DNA from: Methanoculleus sp.
Lineage (GTDB): Archaea; Halobacteriota; Methanomicrobia; Methanomicrobiales; Methanoculleaceae
Direction of reading: 5' to 3'
DNA: 43,207 nucleotides
NCBI RefSeq assembly: GCF_030019085.1
Contig: NZ_JASEFJ010000016.1
Span: forward strand, 1 to 43,207
Translations under genes and position numbers: made by a program
Notes under the pieces: model-generated
Told to the model about the DNA's origin: nothing
The model's database searches: none
What the model saw: only the letters and a program-made list of their open reading frames with translations
Shown: piece after piece, positions 21,081 to 43,106 of the stretch
Layout: each line of letters opens with the position of its first letter
Numbering within the stretch: the first letter of the stretch is position 1

Positions 21081-21922
21081 TTTTCACCTCATTTATCAGA
21101 TTGAACGGTAGTGGTCTGTAATAATACATATTCTTGATCCAGGAGACTACCAAAAACCAATATCAAATGGCGTCCACACGAACGGGCACAGGCGAAGTTC
21201 GGTCTTCAAGGGCCCTGCTGCTTCGTTGTCTAATGCCGCCCTCCTGGATAGGAGCGGTCAGAGAGGAGACACTCTTACCTACCCACCGATGGCCCCCCGA
21301 TACCTGGACTTAATCGGCAGGTTTACTTCGGCGCAGGAGAGGGTATAAAATCAATATCTTCTGGCTTTACGCTGGTTTGATGACCCTCTGCCTGGAGAGG
21401 TTGCAGGGTATGCGTATCGCCGCAGACCCGCAGACCGACTGTAAGGAGGGCAGGGGTGATGGAGAACGAGGGATAAACCAGTTACAGGCAGAGATAGGGA
21501 GGAGGACTTTAAGTCCCCCATCCCCGTCAGCCCCTCCCATGCCCAAAATGGGTGATTTTTCATCGACATCCTGCCAGAAACGGCGTCTCTGTCAGTTTTC
21601 AGACAGAATCCGTCCATACAACGGCAATTGCCACCCACCGCCTGCCCCTTTGAGGGGGGCGGGATTTGAGACTGTTCGACGAGAGACGTTCGGTACGAGT
21701 GACTCGATTGCATCGGCGGACCGGTCTCACGGTCTACGGGCATACTACCGCAAAAGGGGGCGCGTTTACAGTTTAGAATCGTTGATTTGATGGCCTCAGA
21801 AAAGGTGGGCCAACCCACCAAAATCCTAATCGTATTGAGAAGAGAAGATCTCAGGAGAATTGCTATGGCCGGGCCGTATAAACTAACAGTTCTGCGGTGA
21901 AGGAGGAGGTGCGCCTGCGAGG
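21081..21922. other. Long intergenic region with a dispersed repeat; no convincing gene
   Basis: Over 840 bases without a supported gene. The first 70 bases hold the flavoprotein promoter (minus strand, TATA-like AATATGTATTATTA). The stretch 21377-21790 is an open frame on the plus strand of 137 codons but has no recognisable protein, a poor start context and an irregular composition, so I do not call it. Copy 2 of a dispersed repeat lies at its end. A TATA-like CGTATAAAC near 21882 and AGGAGGAGGT at 21901 serve the TSUP gene. Confidence 0.6.
21678..21797 (+). repeat. Dispersed repeat, copy 2
   Basis: This 120-base segment matches the reverse complement of 14984-15105 end to end. Shared blocks are GACGAG at the start, ACGAGTGA, GATTGCATCGG, CCGGTCTCACGGTCT, and GTTGATTTGATGGCCTC at the end. 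A shorter third relative is at 29328-29382. Confidence 0.75.
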
Positions 21923-22720
21923 ATGGTTGTTGAGTTCACAATCTGGTGGATCCTGCCGCTGGTCCTGATCGGGTTTATCATAGGTCTGCTGGTGAGTATC
22001 TTCGGCGGTGGTGGCGGTTTCTTCTACGTGCCTCTTCTGACACTCATCTTTCAGGTGCCGACGCAGTATGCCGTCGCCACCTCCCTTGCCTCGATCATCC
22101 CCACCACCATTCTTGGTTCTGTCGGACATTACCGCCAGGGCAACCTGGACGTCTCCCTTGGTTTGATCTTTGGTACTGGCGGAATCATAGGTGCGTTCTT
22201 CGGTGCCTTTGCATCGGGCATGATCCCTCCGCCACTCATGGGGAAACTCTTCGGCATCTTCATGATCGTGCTGAGCATTCCAATGCTTTTCAGCGCCAGG
22301 AAGAGAGCGGGTGCCGGCACAGACGGGAGACCTGCTGTCTCATATCCCCTCACAGCGGCCAGGGCGGCCGAGGGCACGATCTTTGGCATCGTTTCAGGCG
22401 CCATGGCAGGGCTATTCGGGGTGAGTGGAACGCCGCCGGTCATCGCCGGATTGTATCTCATGGGGCTGCCTGCTATAAAGGTGGTTGGAACTTCCATATT
22501 CGTCCTCCTCTTCAACGCCGTTGCAGGTCTGAGCGGCCACCTCGCAATCGGACAGGTTCACTGGGGGCTGACCCTCTTCCTTGCGGCCGGAGCGGCTACA
22601 GGGGCGTATCTTGGACCGCGATACCTGAGCAGGATAAAAACACCCGCCATGGAAAGGTTCTACGGACGATTCTTCACCATGCTGGTCATCGCACTTGGAG
22701 TCGTCATGATCCTGGATTGA
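21923..22720 (+). CDS. TSUP (TauE/SafE) family permease
   Basis: A 265-residue membrane protein of the TSUP/TauE/SafE family, which exports sulfite, sulfoacetate or other anions. Eight or so hydrophobic helices are visible: WWILPLVLIGFIIGLLVSIF, the glycine-rich FGGGGGFFYVPLL, LASIIPTTILGSVGHYRQG, LIFGTGGIIGAFFGAF, LFGIFMIVLSIPMLF, then the second half with IFGIVSGAMAGLFGVSG, KVVGTSIFVLLFNAVAGLSG and TMLVIALGVVMIL. The two halves each carry the inverted-repeat motif (GGGGGFFYVP and GVSGTPPVI). An AGGAGGAGGT precedes the ATG at an 11-base spacing. Substrate is unknown; there is no sulfur-metabolism gene beside it. Confidence 0.9.
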   Translation: MVVEFTIWWILPLVLIGFIIGLLVSIFGGGGGFFYVPLLTLIFQVPTQYAVATSLASIIPTTILGSVGHYRQGNLDVSLGLIFGTGGIIGAFFGAFASGMIPPPLMGKLFGIFMIVLSIPMLFSARKRAGAGTDGRPAVSYPLTAARAAEGTIFGIVSGAMAGLFGVSGTPPVIAGLYLMGLPAIKVVGTSIFVLLFNAVAGLSGHLAIGQVHWGLTLFLAAGAATGAYLGPRYLSRIKTPAMERFYGRFFTMLVIALGVVMILD

Positions 22721-22788
22721 CGAAACCAACCGATGGGAGCGGGTCTGTGTGAGGGTTCCGGCGAACCACCAAACGAGATGGCAGTCTC

Positions 22789-23076
22789 TTGTTGACACGG
22801 CCAGTGGATAGGGTTCCTGTGTACGTCAGCGCGATCGGACCGCGCGCGGCAAAACCGGCAGGTCGCCGCGGCGACCACCTCATCAGTTTTGCAAACAATC
22901 CCCGCTACGTCAAGGAAGAACTCCTGCCAAACTTTGAGAATGGCGCCAGAGAGTCTGGAAAAGATCCGAAAACCATGGAATGTGCCGGACACTTTGCTTA
23001 AGTCTACGACACGGATCAGGTTGTCCTCCACGATGACCTGCAGCAGATGCCGGTACAATTAGTGGAGGGGCTTTAG
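22789..23076 (+). pseudogene. Remnant of an F420-dependent LLM-type oxidoreductase
   Basis: A 70-codon frame reads RVPVYVSAIGPRAAKPAGRR followed by GDHLISFANNPRYVKEELLP and NFENGARESGKDPKTMEC, which matches the central part of F420-dependent LLM (bacterial-luciferase-like) oxidoreductases related to Mer and F420-dependent glucose-6-phosphate dehydrogenase. After an in-frame TAA at 22999-23001 the same frame continues as VYDTDQVVLHDDLQQMPVQL. The N-terminal half of the barrel (about 180 residues) is absent and no proper start exists. It is therefore a 5'-truncated, stop-interrupted gene fragment just downstream of the TSUP gene. The intact family member mer lies 1.4 kb away, but the fragment belongs to another LLM subgroup. 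Confidence 0.75.
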
Positions 23077-23116
23077 AGAGGGCCATGTCAAGCGGGATAA
23101 CCCCGATCTTTAACTT

Positions 23117-23196
23117 GCGGGGGTGAAGGGGGCGGAGCGGGAAGACCCCACCCTTCGGGGTGGGGATGAAAGCAGAGCCGCCCCCTTCACCCCCGC
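23117..23196 (+). repeat. Nested palindrome: 19-base perfect inverted repeat around a UUCG hairpin
   Basis: Left arm GCGGGGGTGAAGGGGGCGG (23117-23135) and right arm 23178-23196 are perfect reverse complements over 19 bases. Between them a second perfect stem, CCCCACCC (23146-23153) and GGGTGGGG (23158-23165), closes the loop TTCG, giving a very stable cUUCGg tetraloop in RNA. The inner part, GAAG + hairpin + ATGAAAG, has the same layout as the IS200/IS605 end hairpin at 42446-42476. It may be a palindromic mobile-element end or a structured RNA. No U-tract follows on either strand, so it is not a simple intrinsic terminator. Confidence 0.85.
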
Positions 23197-23338
23197 TAGA
23201 TAAAAAAAGCACCTGAAATGGGAAACGCGCGGCTCTGGATGCGTTCATCTCAAGAAGAAGATGGGGCTGATACCCTCCAGAAACAGCACCAGTCAGGTGA
23301 ATATAGGAGGGCGAGCGGATCTAACGGTACCTGGATTG

Positions 23339-24292
23339 TCACCGGTCCAGGGTGGTCTCCAGAGGATCCTTACCCCTGAAGAGTGCGCCAAGGTCTTCAG
23401 GAAGTGTCAGGATGACCGGTTCCAGGTGCAGCCTCTCCATGAACGCCGAGTCGCACATGGAGAGGTCGTTCGGGTTTAAACGGGCGATTACGGAGCAAAA
23501 AGTCCGATGACCCCGCCCCGAGTTTCTGGCTGAGTCAAAGTAGATTGCGACATTGAACGCGTGGGTACCAAGACCCCGGTAGAAGTCGATGACCCTGAGG
23601 ATGCCGTCTGCCAGCGGTTCGATGCAGGGTTCGAACTCCTCAAGCGTCGATACCGGGAGGACACCCCGGACCTCCCTCTCGCCGAGAGGAACGGGGTTTG
23701 CCGACCAGAAGATCTCGTTCTCGAAGAGAAACCGTTCCGAAGTGCGTTCGTGTTCCACAAGGTCGTCCCAGTAGGAGCGATGGTGGTCGGCAAGGTAACG
23801 ATCTCCGGCGGTTAGGTAGAGTCCTGCAAGATGGGTGGGTTTCTCATCGGCGATCCCCTGCAGATGGGGGTGGAATATGCTCGCACCGGCCGAGGGGAGG
23901 TAATTCCAGTTGATGCTTGCGTATCCAGGAAATCTGATGAGCGCCTCAACCGTGCCAGATATAGCATCGGTGAGGTTTTTCCTATCAAATCGGTCAGGTG
24001 CGTGTTCGGGTGTGATCACCGTGACCACGTGGCGAGCGGCGAAAGGGTAGAGGTTCGGAAACGTGACGCTTTTCCCGCGCCGGATTCGACTGCCGTCCTC
24101 AAACGTCGGGGTTGAGGTCTCCAGTGTGCCGGGGCAGAACGGGCAGCCCTCATCTGAGGTTGGCATGACGGGAGCGGCGTCGATATGCCGCTCCATCCTG
24201 GCGGGGCTGATCCGGCACATGAGCCCGGTGAGGGTCTCCCTGCGGTATTGCAGGGTGCCGCGTTCAGTCCGGATCTCATCTGTGGTGAACAT
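23339..24292 (-). CDS. Galactose-1-phosphate uridylyltransferase-like nucleotidyltransferase
   Basis: A 317-residue HIT-superfamily protein of the GalT type, which transfers a nucleotidyl group between sugar phosphates. The N-terminal zinc-type pair CPFC (about residues 50-53) and ITPEHAPDRFD are followed by the active-site region NWNYLPSAGASIFHPHLQGI, with the H-P-H nucleophile motif. A second half has FENEIFWSANPVPLGEREV and the C-terminal IYFDSARNSGRGHRTFCSVI. The true substrate is uncertain; many archaeal GalT homologues act on nucleotide sugars for surface glycans. A TATA-like GGTTTATACACC lies 38 bases upstream of the ATG, and GAGGGG directly before it. It is a single gene, 125 bases after mer. 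Confidence 0.8.
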   Translation of the reverse strand: MFTTDEIRTERGTLQYRRETLTGLMCRISPARMERHIDAAPVMPTSDEGCPFCPGTLETSTPTFEDGSRIRRGKSVTFPNLYPFAARHVVTVITPEHAPDRFDRKNLTDAISGTVEALIRFPGYASINWNYLPSAGASIFHPHLQGIADEKPTHLAGLYLTAGDRYLADHHRSYWDDLVEHERTSERFLFENEIFWSANPVPLGEREVRGVLPVSTLEEFEPCIEPLADGILRVIDFYRGLGTHAFNVAIYFDSARNSGRGHRTFCSVIARLNPNDLSMCDSAFMERLHLEPVILTLPEDLGALFRGKDPLETTLDR

Positions 24293-24417: not shown

Positions 24418-25410
24418 TCAGACAATGTACTTGCCCAGGAGGCGGATGGAGGTGGTCATGTCGGGGCCGAGTGGCGAGCCGAAGATGATCTGGGTGACTC
24501 CAGCCTTTGCAAGGTCCTCGCACTTCTGCTTGACCATGTCAGGCGTTCCGGCGATGGTGAAGGCATCGATCTCAGCATCACCGACAAGGCTACCGACCGT
24601 CTTGAAGTCGAAGCGACCGAGCGCCTCCTTGATCTTGGCGACGTTGTCCAAGTTGAGGTTGTGGCGCTTGAGGAGTTCGGGCGGGGATCCGGCGGCGATG
24701 AACGCAGCGACGATCTTTGCGGCGTTCCGGGCTTTCTTCTCGTCCATGTCGATGGACATGGCGGTATAGGCGCCGACGTCGAAACTCTTCTTGCCGACCT
24801 TCTCCATCGCTTTCTTGATGATCGGGATGGCGACCTCGAAGTCCTTCGGGTTGGACGCGTTGATCAGGGCACCGTCACCGATCTCACCGGCGAGTTCGAG
24901 CATCTTGGGCCCCTGGGCACCGATGTAGATCGGGATACCCTTCTTGCCTGGCAGGGTTACACCGGTCAGCTTGGCGCCATCGTAGTCGAAGAACTCCATC
25001 TTGCCGGTCTTCTTGACCTCTTCGCCGGCCAGGAGTTTCCGGATCTGCTCGACGCCTTCGCGCAGGCGGACGACGGGCTTGACAGGCTGTATGGCGAGCT
25101 TCGGGAGGGTCGAGAGGTCGCCGGGCCCGATACCCAGGACTGCGCGTCCATCGGAGATCTCGTTTAACGTGGCCGCGAAAGACGCGATCGCTGCCGGCGT
25201 GTCGGTGAAGGTGTTCATGATTCCCGGGCCCATCTTGATCGTGTCGGTGTTTGCCGCGATCATGGCAAGGGTCGGGTATGCGTGACGGTTGTTGTAGTGG
25301 TTGGTGATCCAGGCGTAGTCTATATCCTTCGACTCTGCAAGCTTGGTGTACTTCACCACCTGCTTTACGTTGATTGCTCCGGGCACAAATTCAATTCCAT
25401 ATGTAGTCAA
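24418..25410 (-). CDS. mer: 5,10-methylenetetrahydromethanopterin reductase
   Basis: F420-dependent reductase of the methanogenesis and formate/CO2 pathway: methylene-H4MPT plus F420H2 to methyl-H4MPT. It is a bacterial-luciferase-like TIM barrel of 330 residues. Recognisable parts are TYGIEFVPGAINVKQVVKYT, YAWITNHYNNRHAYPTLAMI, KMGPGIMNTFTDTPAAIASF, VLGIGPGDLSTLPKLAI, and IPIYIGAQGPKMLELAGEIG. Ends at residue 330, full length. Start is TTG at 25410 behind GAGGTGA at a six-base spacing. A strong TATA box (TTTATATAA on the minus strand, 25447-25455) is about 40 bases upstream, giving a short leader. A TTG start for such a highly used enzyme is notable. Confidence 0.96.
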   Translation of the reverse strand: MTTYGIEFVPGAINVKQVVKYTKLAESKDIDYAWITNHYNNRHAYPTLAMIAANTDTIKMGPGIMNTFTDTPAAIASFAATLNEISDGRAVLGIGPGDLSTLPKLAIQPVKPVVRLREGVEQIRKLLAGEEVKKTGKMEFFDYDGAKLTGVTLPGKKGIPIYIGAQGPKMLELAGEIGDGALINASNPKDFEVAIPIIKKAMEKVGKKSFDVGAYTAMSIDMDEKKARNAAKIVAAFIAAGSPPELLKRHNLNLDNVAKIKEALGRFDFKTVGSLVGDAEIDAFTIAGTPDMVKQKCEDLAKAGVTQIIFGSPLGPDMTTSIRLLGKYIV

Positions 25411-41420: not shown

Positions 41421-41788
41421 ATCGATCATATTCAGGTTAGCGGTCATACCGGGAGAGACGTTCCGCGGGGGACCTCACGACTGTTGCCGTGGTTGTCATC
41501 CCTTCTATCATCCACGCGCCCCGCACGGCCACGGGGTGAATCCCTGCGCTCCGGGCGCATATCGAAGAAGGTCATGAACCGGACGTTCGAGGCCGCAGAT
41601 ACCTTCGGCACGGCGACGATCATCATCCACCCCGGGCGACATCGCCCGTGAAGAGTTCCATGGGTTCCTGGACGGCTATGCCTGGCCCGCCTCAGCCTCG
41701 AGAACCTCACGGCGGTCTTTTGCGGCCGCTCCATTCCCGGGACAGCGGCCGAAGAACTCGAAGACCCTGCAGACTGGATCGAGCCAAC
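41421..41788 (+). pseudogene. Decayed tandem copy of the TIM-barrel gene
   Basis: This segment aligns with 40600-41035 of the intact gene: ATCGATCATATTCAGGTT matches the intact ATCGACTGCATCCAGGTT, then ATCATCCACGCGCCCCGCAC, GGTGAATCCCTGCGC, ATGAACCGGACGTTCGAGGC and GAGAACCTCACGGCGGTC follow in the same order. Deletions of tens of bases and several frameshifts break the frame. The homology ends at about 41788, where the sequence turns into a truncated tnpB on the other strand. The bases 41339-41420 between the intact gene and this copy show no clear feature. Confidence 0.8.
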
Positions 41789-42405
41789 GGTTCGCGATCC
41801 GTTCGTGGATTCTTGCAACAACCTTTCTGGGTTTTTTCCCATCAGGAGTTCCTTTCTCTGTCTTCGAGGGTCTCCTCTGCGCCTTCGAAAGAGCCTTCTT
41901 ATCGGTGCGGAAGGACCAGAGGTTCTCGATCTTCTCTCCGTTCGATAAAGTAGCAAAGGATTCAATACCTGGATCGACCCCTAGCGTGGTATCTTTCTCT
42001 CGTGCCGGAGAGGGTTCGTACTCGACCGAGAAGCAGGCATACCCCTTCCCGGTTGAAGACCGCCGGACCGTGAGAGTCTTGATGTTACTTTCGATCGGGC
42101 GGTGGAGGTCGATCGGGATGTTTCCAATATTTGATGCGTCGAGGTGCGCGCCGGCATCATTTATGTGAAAACCAGACCGGGGATACCCGGGATCATCCCA
42201 CCCAGCCTTCACCCCTTGGAAGAAGGCTTTGAACGCGAGATCCACACGTTTTGAGACCTCCTGTAAGACCTGAGAGTAAACTGTAGAGAGGCCGGGATGC
42301 TCCTTTTTCCAGATTGGAATTATCGACATACCCCAGCTTCTGCTCCATCTGAGAGACCTGCGATTTTATCGGGTAGAGCCGATAGCGATACCCCTCCATC
42401 CGCAT
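41789..42405 (-). pseudogene. tnpB: tnpB copy B of the IS200/IS605 group, internally deleted and 3'-truncated
   Basis: The N-terminus is intact in MEGYRYRLYPIKSQVSQMEQ (frame 42193-42405). After QKLG the frame shifts and a stretch is missing; the second frame (from about 42329) continues with LAFKAFFQGVKAGWDDPGYP, IPIDLHRPIESNIKTLTVRR and the first RuvC motif TLGVDPGIESFATLSNGE. It stops being TnpB-like after ARIHERIANR, at about 41789, where the decayed TIM-barrel copy begins. The RuvC-II, zinc-ribbon and RuvC-III parts are absent, so the RNA-guided nuclease is dead. Confidence 0.85.
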
Positions 42406-42417
42406 GGTCTTGTCACA

Positions 42418-43106
42418 TCACTCTCTGGGTCTCGGATATACTTCGTGAACTACCACGCGCCTCTCGGGCGTGGCTTCCTGCTTCGTGGACAATACTTGCA
42501 TCACTGAGATGTGATGTAGCGGCATCGTCTCCACAGGCTCAAAGGGCTGTTCCATCCCCACGCGGTGAATATTCACCGCAGCATTGGAATCTCTATCGGC
42601 AATAAACCCGCAGAATGGGCATTCGTGGACTCTTTCTGAAAGAGCCTTTTTCACGATGCGTCCACAGTTTGCGCAGATCTGCGTTGCATCTCGGGGATCG
42701 ACCTGAATGAAGTTCATACCAGCACTTTCAGCCTTGTACGAGAGGTAAGAACATAACCGCCCCCACGATGCACTGTGGATACTCCTGCGGAGTCCGCAAG
42801 ATTTGCCGTTCTCCTTGAGATACTTGATATTCAAATCTTCGACACAGATCGTTGCATAGGTGTCAACGTACTGACGAGAAAGTTTGTGCAGGAAATCGTT
42901 CTTCTGGTTCGTGATGTGCTCATAAACCTTCTCCAGCCTGTATTTTGCCTTTTTCCAGTTCTATGAGAACCGTTTCTTCCAGGCAATGCTTTGCTGTAAC
43001 TTCTTCGGTCAAGCGAGTGCTCATAGAACCGGGGATTCTCGATTACTGTACCGTTGCTATCGACCGCAAACGAATCCAACCCGACGTCAATACCCACGGA
43101 TTAGCC
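42418..43106 (-). pseudogene. tnpB: tnpB copy A of the IS200/IS605 group, 5'-truncated and frameshifted
   Basis: Starts abruptly at SVGIDVGLDSFAVDSNGTVI (RuvC-I) with an in-frame TAA just before it and no N-terminal domain. A frameshift after FYEHSL and an in-frame TAG near 42964 (KKRFS-stop-NWKKAKYRLEKVY) interrupt it. From about 42960 the frame is open: CVEDLNIKYLKENGK, the zinc ribbon CANC and CPFC, then FIADRDSNAAVNIHRVG (RuvC-III). The C-terminal end is followed directly by the end hairpin of the element. The protein would be inactive. Confidence 0.87.
42446..42476 (-). ncRNA. IS200/IS605 right-end hairpin, probable omega-RNA scaffold region
   Basis: On the minus strand the sequence reads GAAG, then CCACGCCCGAGAGGCGCGTGG forming a stem of about eight pairs with a bulge, then TAGTTCAC. 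GAAG + hairpin + TAGTTCA is the usual right end of IS200/IS605-type tnpB elements, where the guide-RNA scaffold (omega RNA) overlaps the 3' end of tnpB. It overlaps the last codons of copy A. Whether it is still transcribed is unknown. Confidence 0.65.

Follow-up and report, generated by a model that had tools for sequence, protein, structure and literature searches.

What is an 80-base nested palindrome doing between two genes of a methanogen, and how did its outer stem come to be perfect? The palindrome lies at positions 23117-23196 of contig NZ_JASEFJ010000016.1 from Methanoculleus sp., within the stretch of 43,207 nucleotides that was analysed as a whole and is referred to here as the window. 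The first-pass annotation had described a 19-base outer stem enclosing a UUCG hairpin, and this description is borne out: the arms are perfectly complementary, and their pairing reaches 23109-23204 if two mismatches are allowed. Two features define the structure:

23117-23135: left outer arm GCGGGGGTGAAGGGGGCGG, perfectly complementary to 23178-23196 (19 bp)
23146-23165, plus strand: inner hairpin CCCCACCC-TTCG-GGGTGGGG with an 8-bp stem, assigned below as the left-end subterminal hairpin (IP_L)

As RNA, the 100-nt palindrome region folds at -69.5 kcal/mol versus -39.1 +/- 3.8 kcal/mol for shuffled sequences (z = -8.0), with 0 of 200 shuffles folding as well. It is also the only perfect inverted repeat of at least 14 bp with a gap of at most 60 in the 43-kb window, and 20 first-order shuffles of the window yielded none of that kind. 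The palindrome is real and well beyond chance.

Copies in the genome and the genus

Further copies, which the first-pass annotation had thought worth looking for, do exist, so that the sequence cannot be called single-copy: ~15 places in this Methanoculleus genome carry its left 75 nt, as members of a family found throughout the genus. Searching the palindrome's own genome (1.91 Mb, 59 contigs, 99.6% complete) returned 40 matches at E <= 10, representing about 15 distinct strong places, many of the remaining matches being the same places on the other strand. Most span query positions 10-84 or less, covering the left arm, hairpin and 3' flank, and the whole unit is covered by the window copy alone. 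Several of these copies sit at contig ends, as expected of repeats. Among relatives, 40 of 41 genomes gave a match at E <= 1, strong in part of them only. An exact pattern search across 232 genomes of the order recovered just three palindromic copies, one per genome, and did not find the whole unit a second time.

Intact elements that begin with the repeat

In a complete genome of the same genus (G023), the repeat opens some 16 full-length elements that were compared. Those with both tnpA and tnpB after the left end measure ~1.72-1.74 kb; those that have tnpB without tnpA measure ~1.34-1.43 kb. The left end likewise stands directly before tnpA/tnpB in two further genomes (G009 and G027), such that all three genomes show the feature by which an IS200/IS605 left end can be recognized, sequence homology with the start of intact tnpA/tnpB elements. 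Intact elements close with a right end of the form GGAAG-hairpin-TAGTTCAC, 1.3-1.7 kb from the left end. Because the repeat lies directly 5' of tnpA/tnpB with a right end at that distance, the palindrome is, judged by homology, the left end (LE) of an IS605/IS1341-type element (IS200/IS605 family) resident in Methanoculleus. The Methanoculleus family resembles known IS200/IS605 systems (IS608, ISDra2 and the archaeal IS605/IS1341) in its subterminal hairpin with a 5' guide, its T-rich target with 3' insertion, the lack of target duplication and the tnpA/tnpB layout of intact copies; our literature search found no paper linking IS605 with Methanoculleus.

The guide-hairpin layout had earlier been likened to that of an IS200/IS605 end near position 42446. 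The likeness is real, but that sequence is a right end and the palindrome a left end:

42446-42484, minus strand: right end of another IS605/IS1341 copy, which is broken, GGAAG-CCACGCCC-GAGA-GGCGCGTGG-TAGTTCAC

Two broken tnpB copies lie on the minus strand in this part of the window (41676-42329 and 42446-43011); the second contains in-frame stops as well as the right end at 42446-42484, and the contig end at 43207 comes before any left end of that copy. Elsewhere in the genome, the only long tnpA frame (46571-46897, within locus L138, G000:C6 46571-46954) carries an HUH (HYH) motif and undergoes a frame change ahead of the C-terminal part, near a contig end, which may reflect either a broken gene or a misassembly.

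Insertion sites, target and guide

Flanking sequences, once the element is removed, align uninterrupted with relatives, revealing empty sites in which TTTAT/TTAA is kept and the remainder of the element is absent. For L006, the empty site in G023 reads ...TTACATTTAT and then, past the insertion point, TTTCTTTG; with the element in place, the sequence is TTTAT-C[element]. For L144, the empty site is found in the palindrome's own genome, as CACAATTAA followed by TCTTGG, with G048 carrying one extra C there. The L014 comparison gives TTAA, and the junction at L010 is less clean. From these comparisons the element therefore inserts 3' of TTTAA or TTTAT with no target duplication; its first base is C and its last bases are TTCAC. 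At the family level, flanks and empty sites thus agree on a fixed short target without duplication. In G023 the flanks of the L014 site lie ~3.6 kb apart (G023:C1:1338295-1342070), which suggests another insertion at or near that site.

Elements of Sulfolobus islandicus are reported to have the same two pentamers, TTTAA and TTTAT, beside their left ends (PMC10640517). The guide of IS608, located 5' of the hairpin, pairs with the target (PMC5934647), and guide-target pairing in the Methanoculleus family follows that scheme: in the other copies, the base after GAAG tracks the fifth target base (GAAG-T with TTTAA, GAAG-A with TTTAT). Across 30 distinct gap-free copies, which are related and do not amount to 30 independent events, 21 combine TTTAA/ATTAA with GAAGT, 8 combine TTTAT with GAAGA, and a single copy combines TTTAA with GAAGA; this sole exception is the window copy. 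A wider tally includes three copies with G or C after GAAG, together with two apparent exceptions (L143 and L152) in which the search pattern had caught an upstream ATTA. The inner hairpin is conserved as a structure over the 30 copies, with 228 of 240 pair cells standard and two-sided changes at three positions. The guide/target match predicts TTTAA/TTTAT as the target and as the probable TnpB TAM.

By analogy with IS608 and ISDra2, the HUH transposase TnpA of an intact element would bind the LE hairpin and its 5' guide as single-stranded DNA. The guide (GAAG plus one base) would pair with the target pentamer, the strand would be cleaved on the 3' side of the pentamer, and the element would leave as a single-stranded circle.

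The window copy as a probable left-end remnant

Read against the intact elements, the window copy comprises the following parts:

23109-23113, plus strand: target pentanucleotide TTTAA at the left junction, a target lying in the same place in nearly all copies; relatives' empty sites keep TTTAT/TTAA
23114-23140, plus strand: left-end tip CTTGCGGGGGTGAAGGGGGCGGAGCGG, whose first base, C, is set by the empty sites
23141-23145, plus strand: guide GAAGA, 5' of the hairpin, of the A-type that is elsewhere paired with TTTAT, not TTTAA
23166-23183, plus strand: left-end 3' flank ATGAAAGCAGAGCCGCCC, conserved upstream of tnpA/tnpB in relatives
23178-23204, plus strand: right outer arm, an inverted left-end tip whose last bases are ATAAA (minus strand: TTTAT)

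The tip is 80-97% identical to the tips of intact IS605/IS1341 copies. Little else of an element follows. A right-end motif search of the window found none besides that at 42446, and no right end was found from the palindrome up to the conserved genes that begin at ~23374. Comparison of the downstream sequence with intact elements by blastn and by tblastn in all frames gave only chance-level matches to tnpB, and a search of 150 genomes, plasmids and Pfam turned up no relatives of a 50-aa reading frame downstream of the palindrome. Nothing in the genus corresponds to the interval 22700-23370; synteny resumes at about 23374.

Compared with functional IS200/IS605 elements, the window copy thus lacks a right end and genes, carries a mismatched guide and has an abnormally long outer stem. 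Other copies have a guide that matches their target and this one does not; it was therefore filed as a left-end remnant, not a functional end. In our assessment the palindrome is very probably the remnant left end of an IS605/IS1341-type element, most likely immobile and inactive, because its genes are lost, no right end remains and its guide is mismatched.

Origin of the perfect outer stem

The long stem is exceptional within the family. Among 55 left-end copies with comparable arms, 51 have a longest perfect outer stem of at most 9 bp, the other four being L154 (23 bp), the window copy (19), L151 (15) and L155 (14). All four lack an intact tnpB behind the left end: L155 retains a tnpB C-terminal piece only, L154 is followed by a short spacer and then a right end, and L151 has an inverted right-end repeat. 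Since long stems are confined to gene-less copies, the long stem is, by this comparison, a derived state of such copies.

How could it have been derived? In an ordinary LE, the tip and the 3' flank share a perfect complement of 5-9 bp; a nascent strand could fold back on this short complement and copy the tip in reverse, in a template switch of the quasipalindrome type. Template switching of this kind, in which an imperfect inverted repeat is made perfect, is known for quasipalindromes (PMC7202029, PMC8794818). The likeness lies in an imperfect repeat being perfected in single derived copies, and the difference in the fact that the tract in the window copy ends at the element tip; in our case the process is deduced by comparison. 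On balance we consider it somewhat probable that the perfect outer stem is secondary and of template-switch origin.

The endpoint of the tract argues for another route. In L154, L155 and the window copy, the mirrored tract stops at the boundary of the element, TTTAT included. Such a stop would be unexpected of a random template-switch endpoint and is expected if two inverted left ends were fused. A second IS605 copy would then have entered in the opposite orientation, and a deletion between two short CCGCCC repeats would have left one hairpin flanked by a left end and an inverted left-end tip; the palindrome would still be an IS605 left-end remnant, only its stem having a different origin. Fusion accounts for right arms whose ends coincide precisely with an element tip and the TTTAT belonging to it, and it permits unlike targets on the two sides, as in the window copy (TTTAA left, TTTAT right). 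The right arm of L151, moreover, joins a right end, reading ...TTCAC-CTTGCGG on the minus strand. Against it, several independent copies would each have had to undergo two insertions and a deletion, no intermediate carrying both elements was observed, and the mirrored inner half of L156 is better explained by template switching. We therefore regard fusion as possible, though unlikely, and lean undecidedly to template switching, because the L156 tract fits it better and fewer steps are needed.

Two of these loci deserve description in their own right. In L156 (G018:C381 34860-34943), the inner half on the guide side is mirrored to a perfect palindrome, a tract unlike that of the window copy. 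In L151 (G029:C27 near 21192-21282), a right end is joined to a left tip on the minus strand as TAGTTCAC-CTTGCGG, as expected of an excised circle junction, here fused to an inverted left end.

A bolder possibility is that a TnpA-linked reaction, and not replication slippage, lets IS605 elements form double-left-end foldback units that have TTTAW as their border on either strand. If so, the coincidence of tract and tip in three copies would be its signature; we consider this improbable. The palindrome appears to be of a known kind: an IS605 left end that has decayed and whose stem was perfected secondarily. Long, perfect stems in decaying DNA need not reflect selection, as a one-step copying event can suffice. 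This conspicuous methanogen palindrome is best annotated as a dead transposon tip, its value lying mostly in annotation.

The structured-RNA reading and the neighbouring gene

The first-pass annotation had also raised the option of a structured RNA, and a hairpin retained as an RNA or as a terminator for convergent genes would suit both the extreme fold stability and the site, between a rightward TauE gene (21923-22720) and a leftward gene (23339-24292). Against this reading, a search of the palindrome against Rfam 15 gave no family at the gathering score, no T-run follows the stem on either strand, and variation in the family follows transposon ends, the long outer stem not being conserved among homologues. 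We hold it to be very improbable. At a relaxed threshold, Rfam returned hairpin-shaped chance matches, mostly to microRNA models that fit any long hairpin, and these were set aside.

It had been suggested, too, that the arrival of the palindrome damaged an adjacent gene:

22800-23060, plus strand: luciferase-like monooxygenase (LLM) fragment with an in-frame stop, a neighbour and not part of the element

The fragment matches positions 167-221 of 314 in Pfam PF00296 (E 5e-8), the N-terminal half of the domain being missing. The missing half faces away from the palindrome, whose arrival therefore does not account for the damage. The fragment belongs to a segment downstream of the TauE gene (22720-23370) with no genus counterpart, and it is distinct from the intact mer gene (methylenetetrahydromethanopterin reductase) at 24418-25410 on the minus strand.

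Minimal elements of the genus

A very improbable reading takes the palindrome for a ~90-bp PATE or MITE-like unit mobilised in trans. In its favour, the genus has tnpA genes as well as ~60-bp elements that fuse LE and RE, and relatives offer empty sites for some of these. Against it stand the missing right end, the mismatched guide, the finding of the complete unit only once among the 232 genomes searched from the order, and the loss of the C-terminal part of the own genome's only long tnpA frame through a frame change near a contig end. A PATE would have both ends and no transposase gene, and here no right end occurs up to the conserved gene; a classical MITE would show TIRs, target duplication and multiple full-length copies, and the whole unit was found once, the palindromes related to it differing from one another and each being single. 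The earlier proposal of a gene-less relative mobilised in trans consequently stands in part: PATE-like relatives do occur in the genome, but the window copy is not one of them.

These relatives are fusions of a left tip with a right hairpin, ~60 bp long, seen in the own genome at L007, L009, L010, L012, L013, L014 and L017 and elsewhere at L144 (G023) and L041 (G017). Haloquadratum walsbyi PATEs include 52-bp 'terminal-only' IS605-type forms that may, according to their authors, be mobile (PMC3119063). The Methanoculleus fusions (for example, L007, L009 and L144) are of the same kind, with fused IS605-type ends, no duplication and empty sites, whereas the window palindrome, a left end only, is unlike them. 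Methanoculleus thereby joins the archaea with minimal ~60-bp IS605 derivatives.
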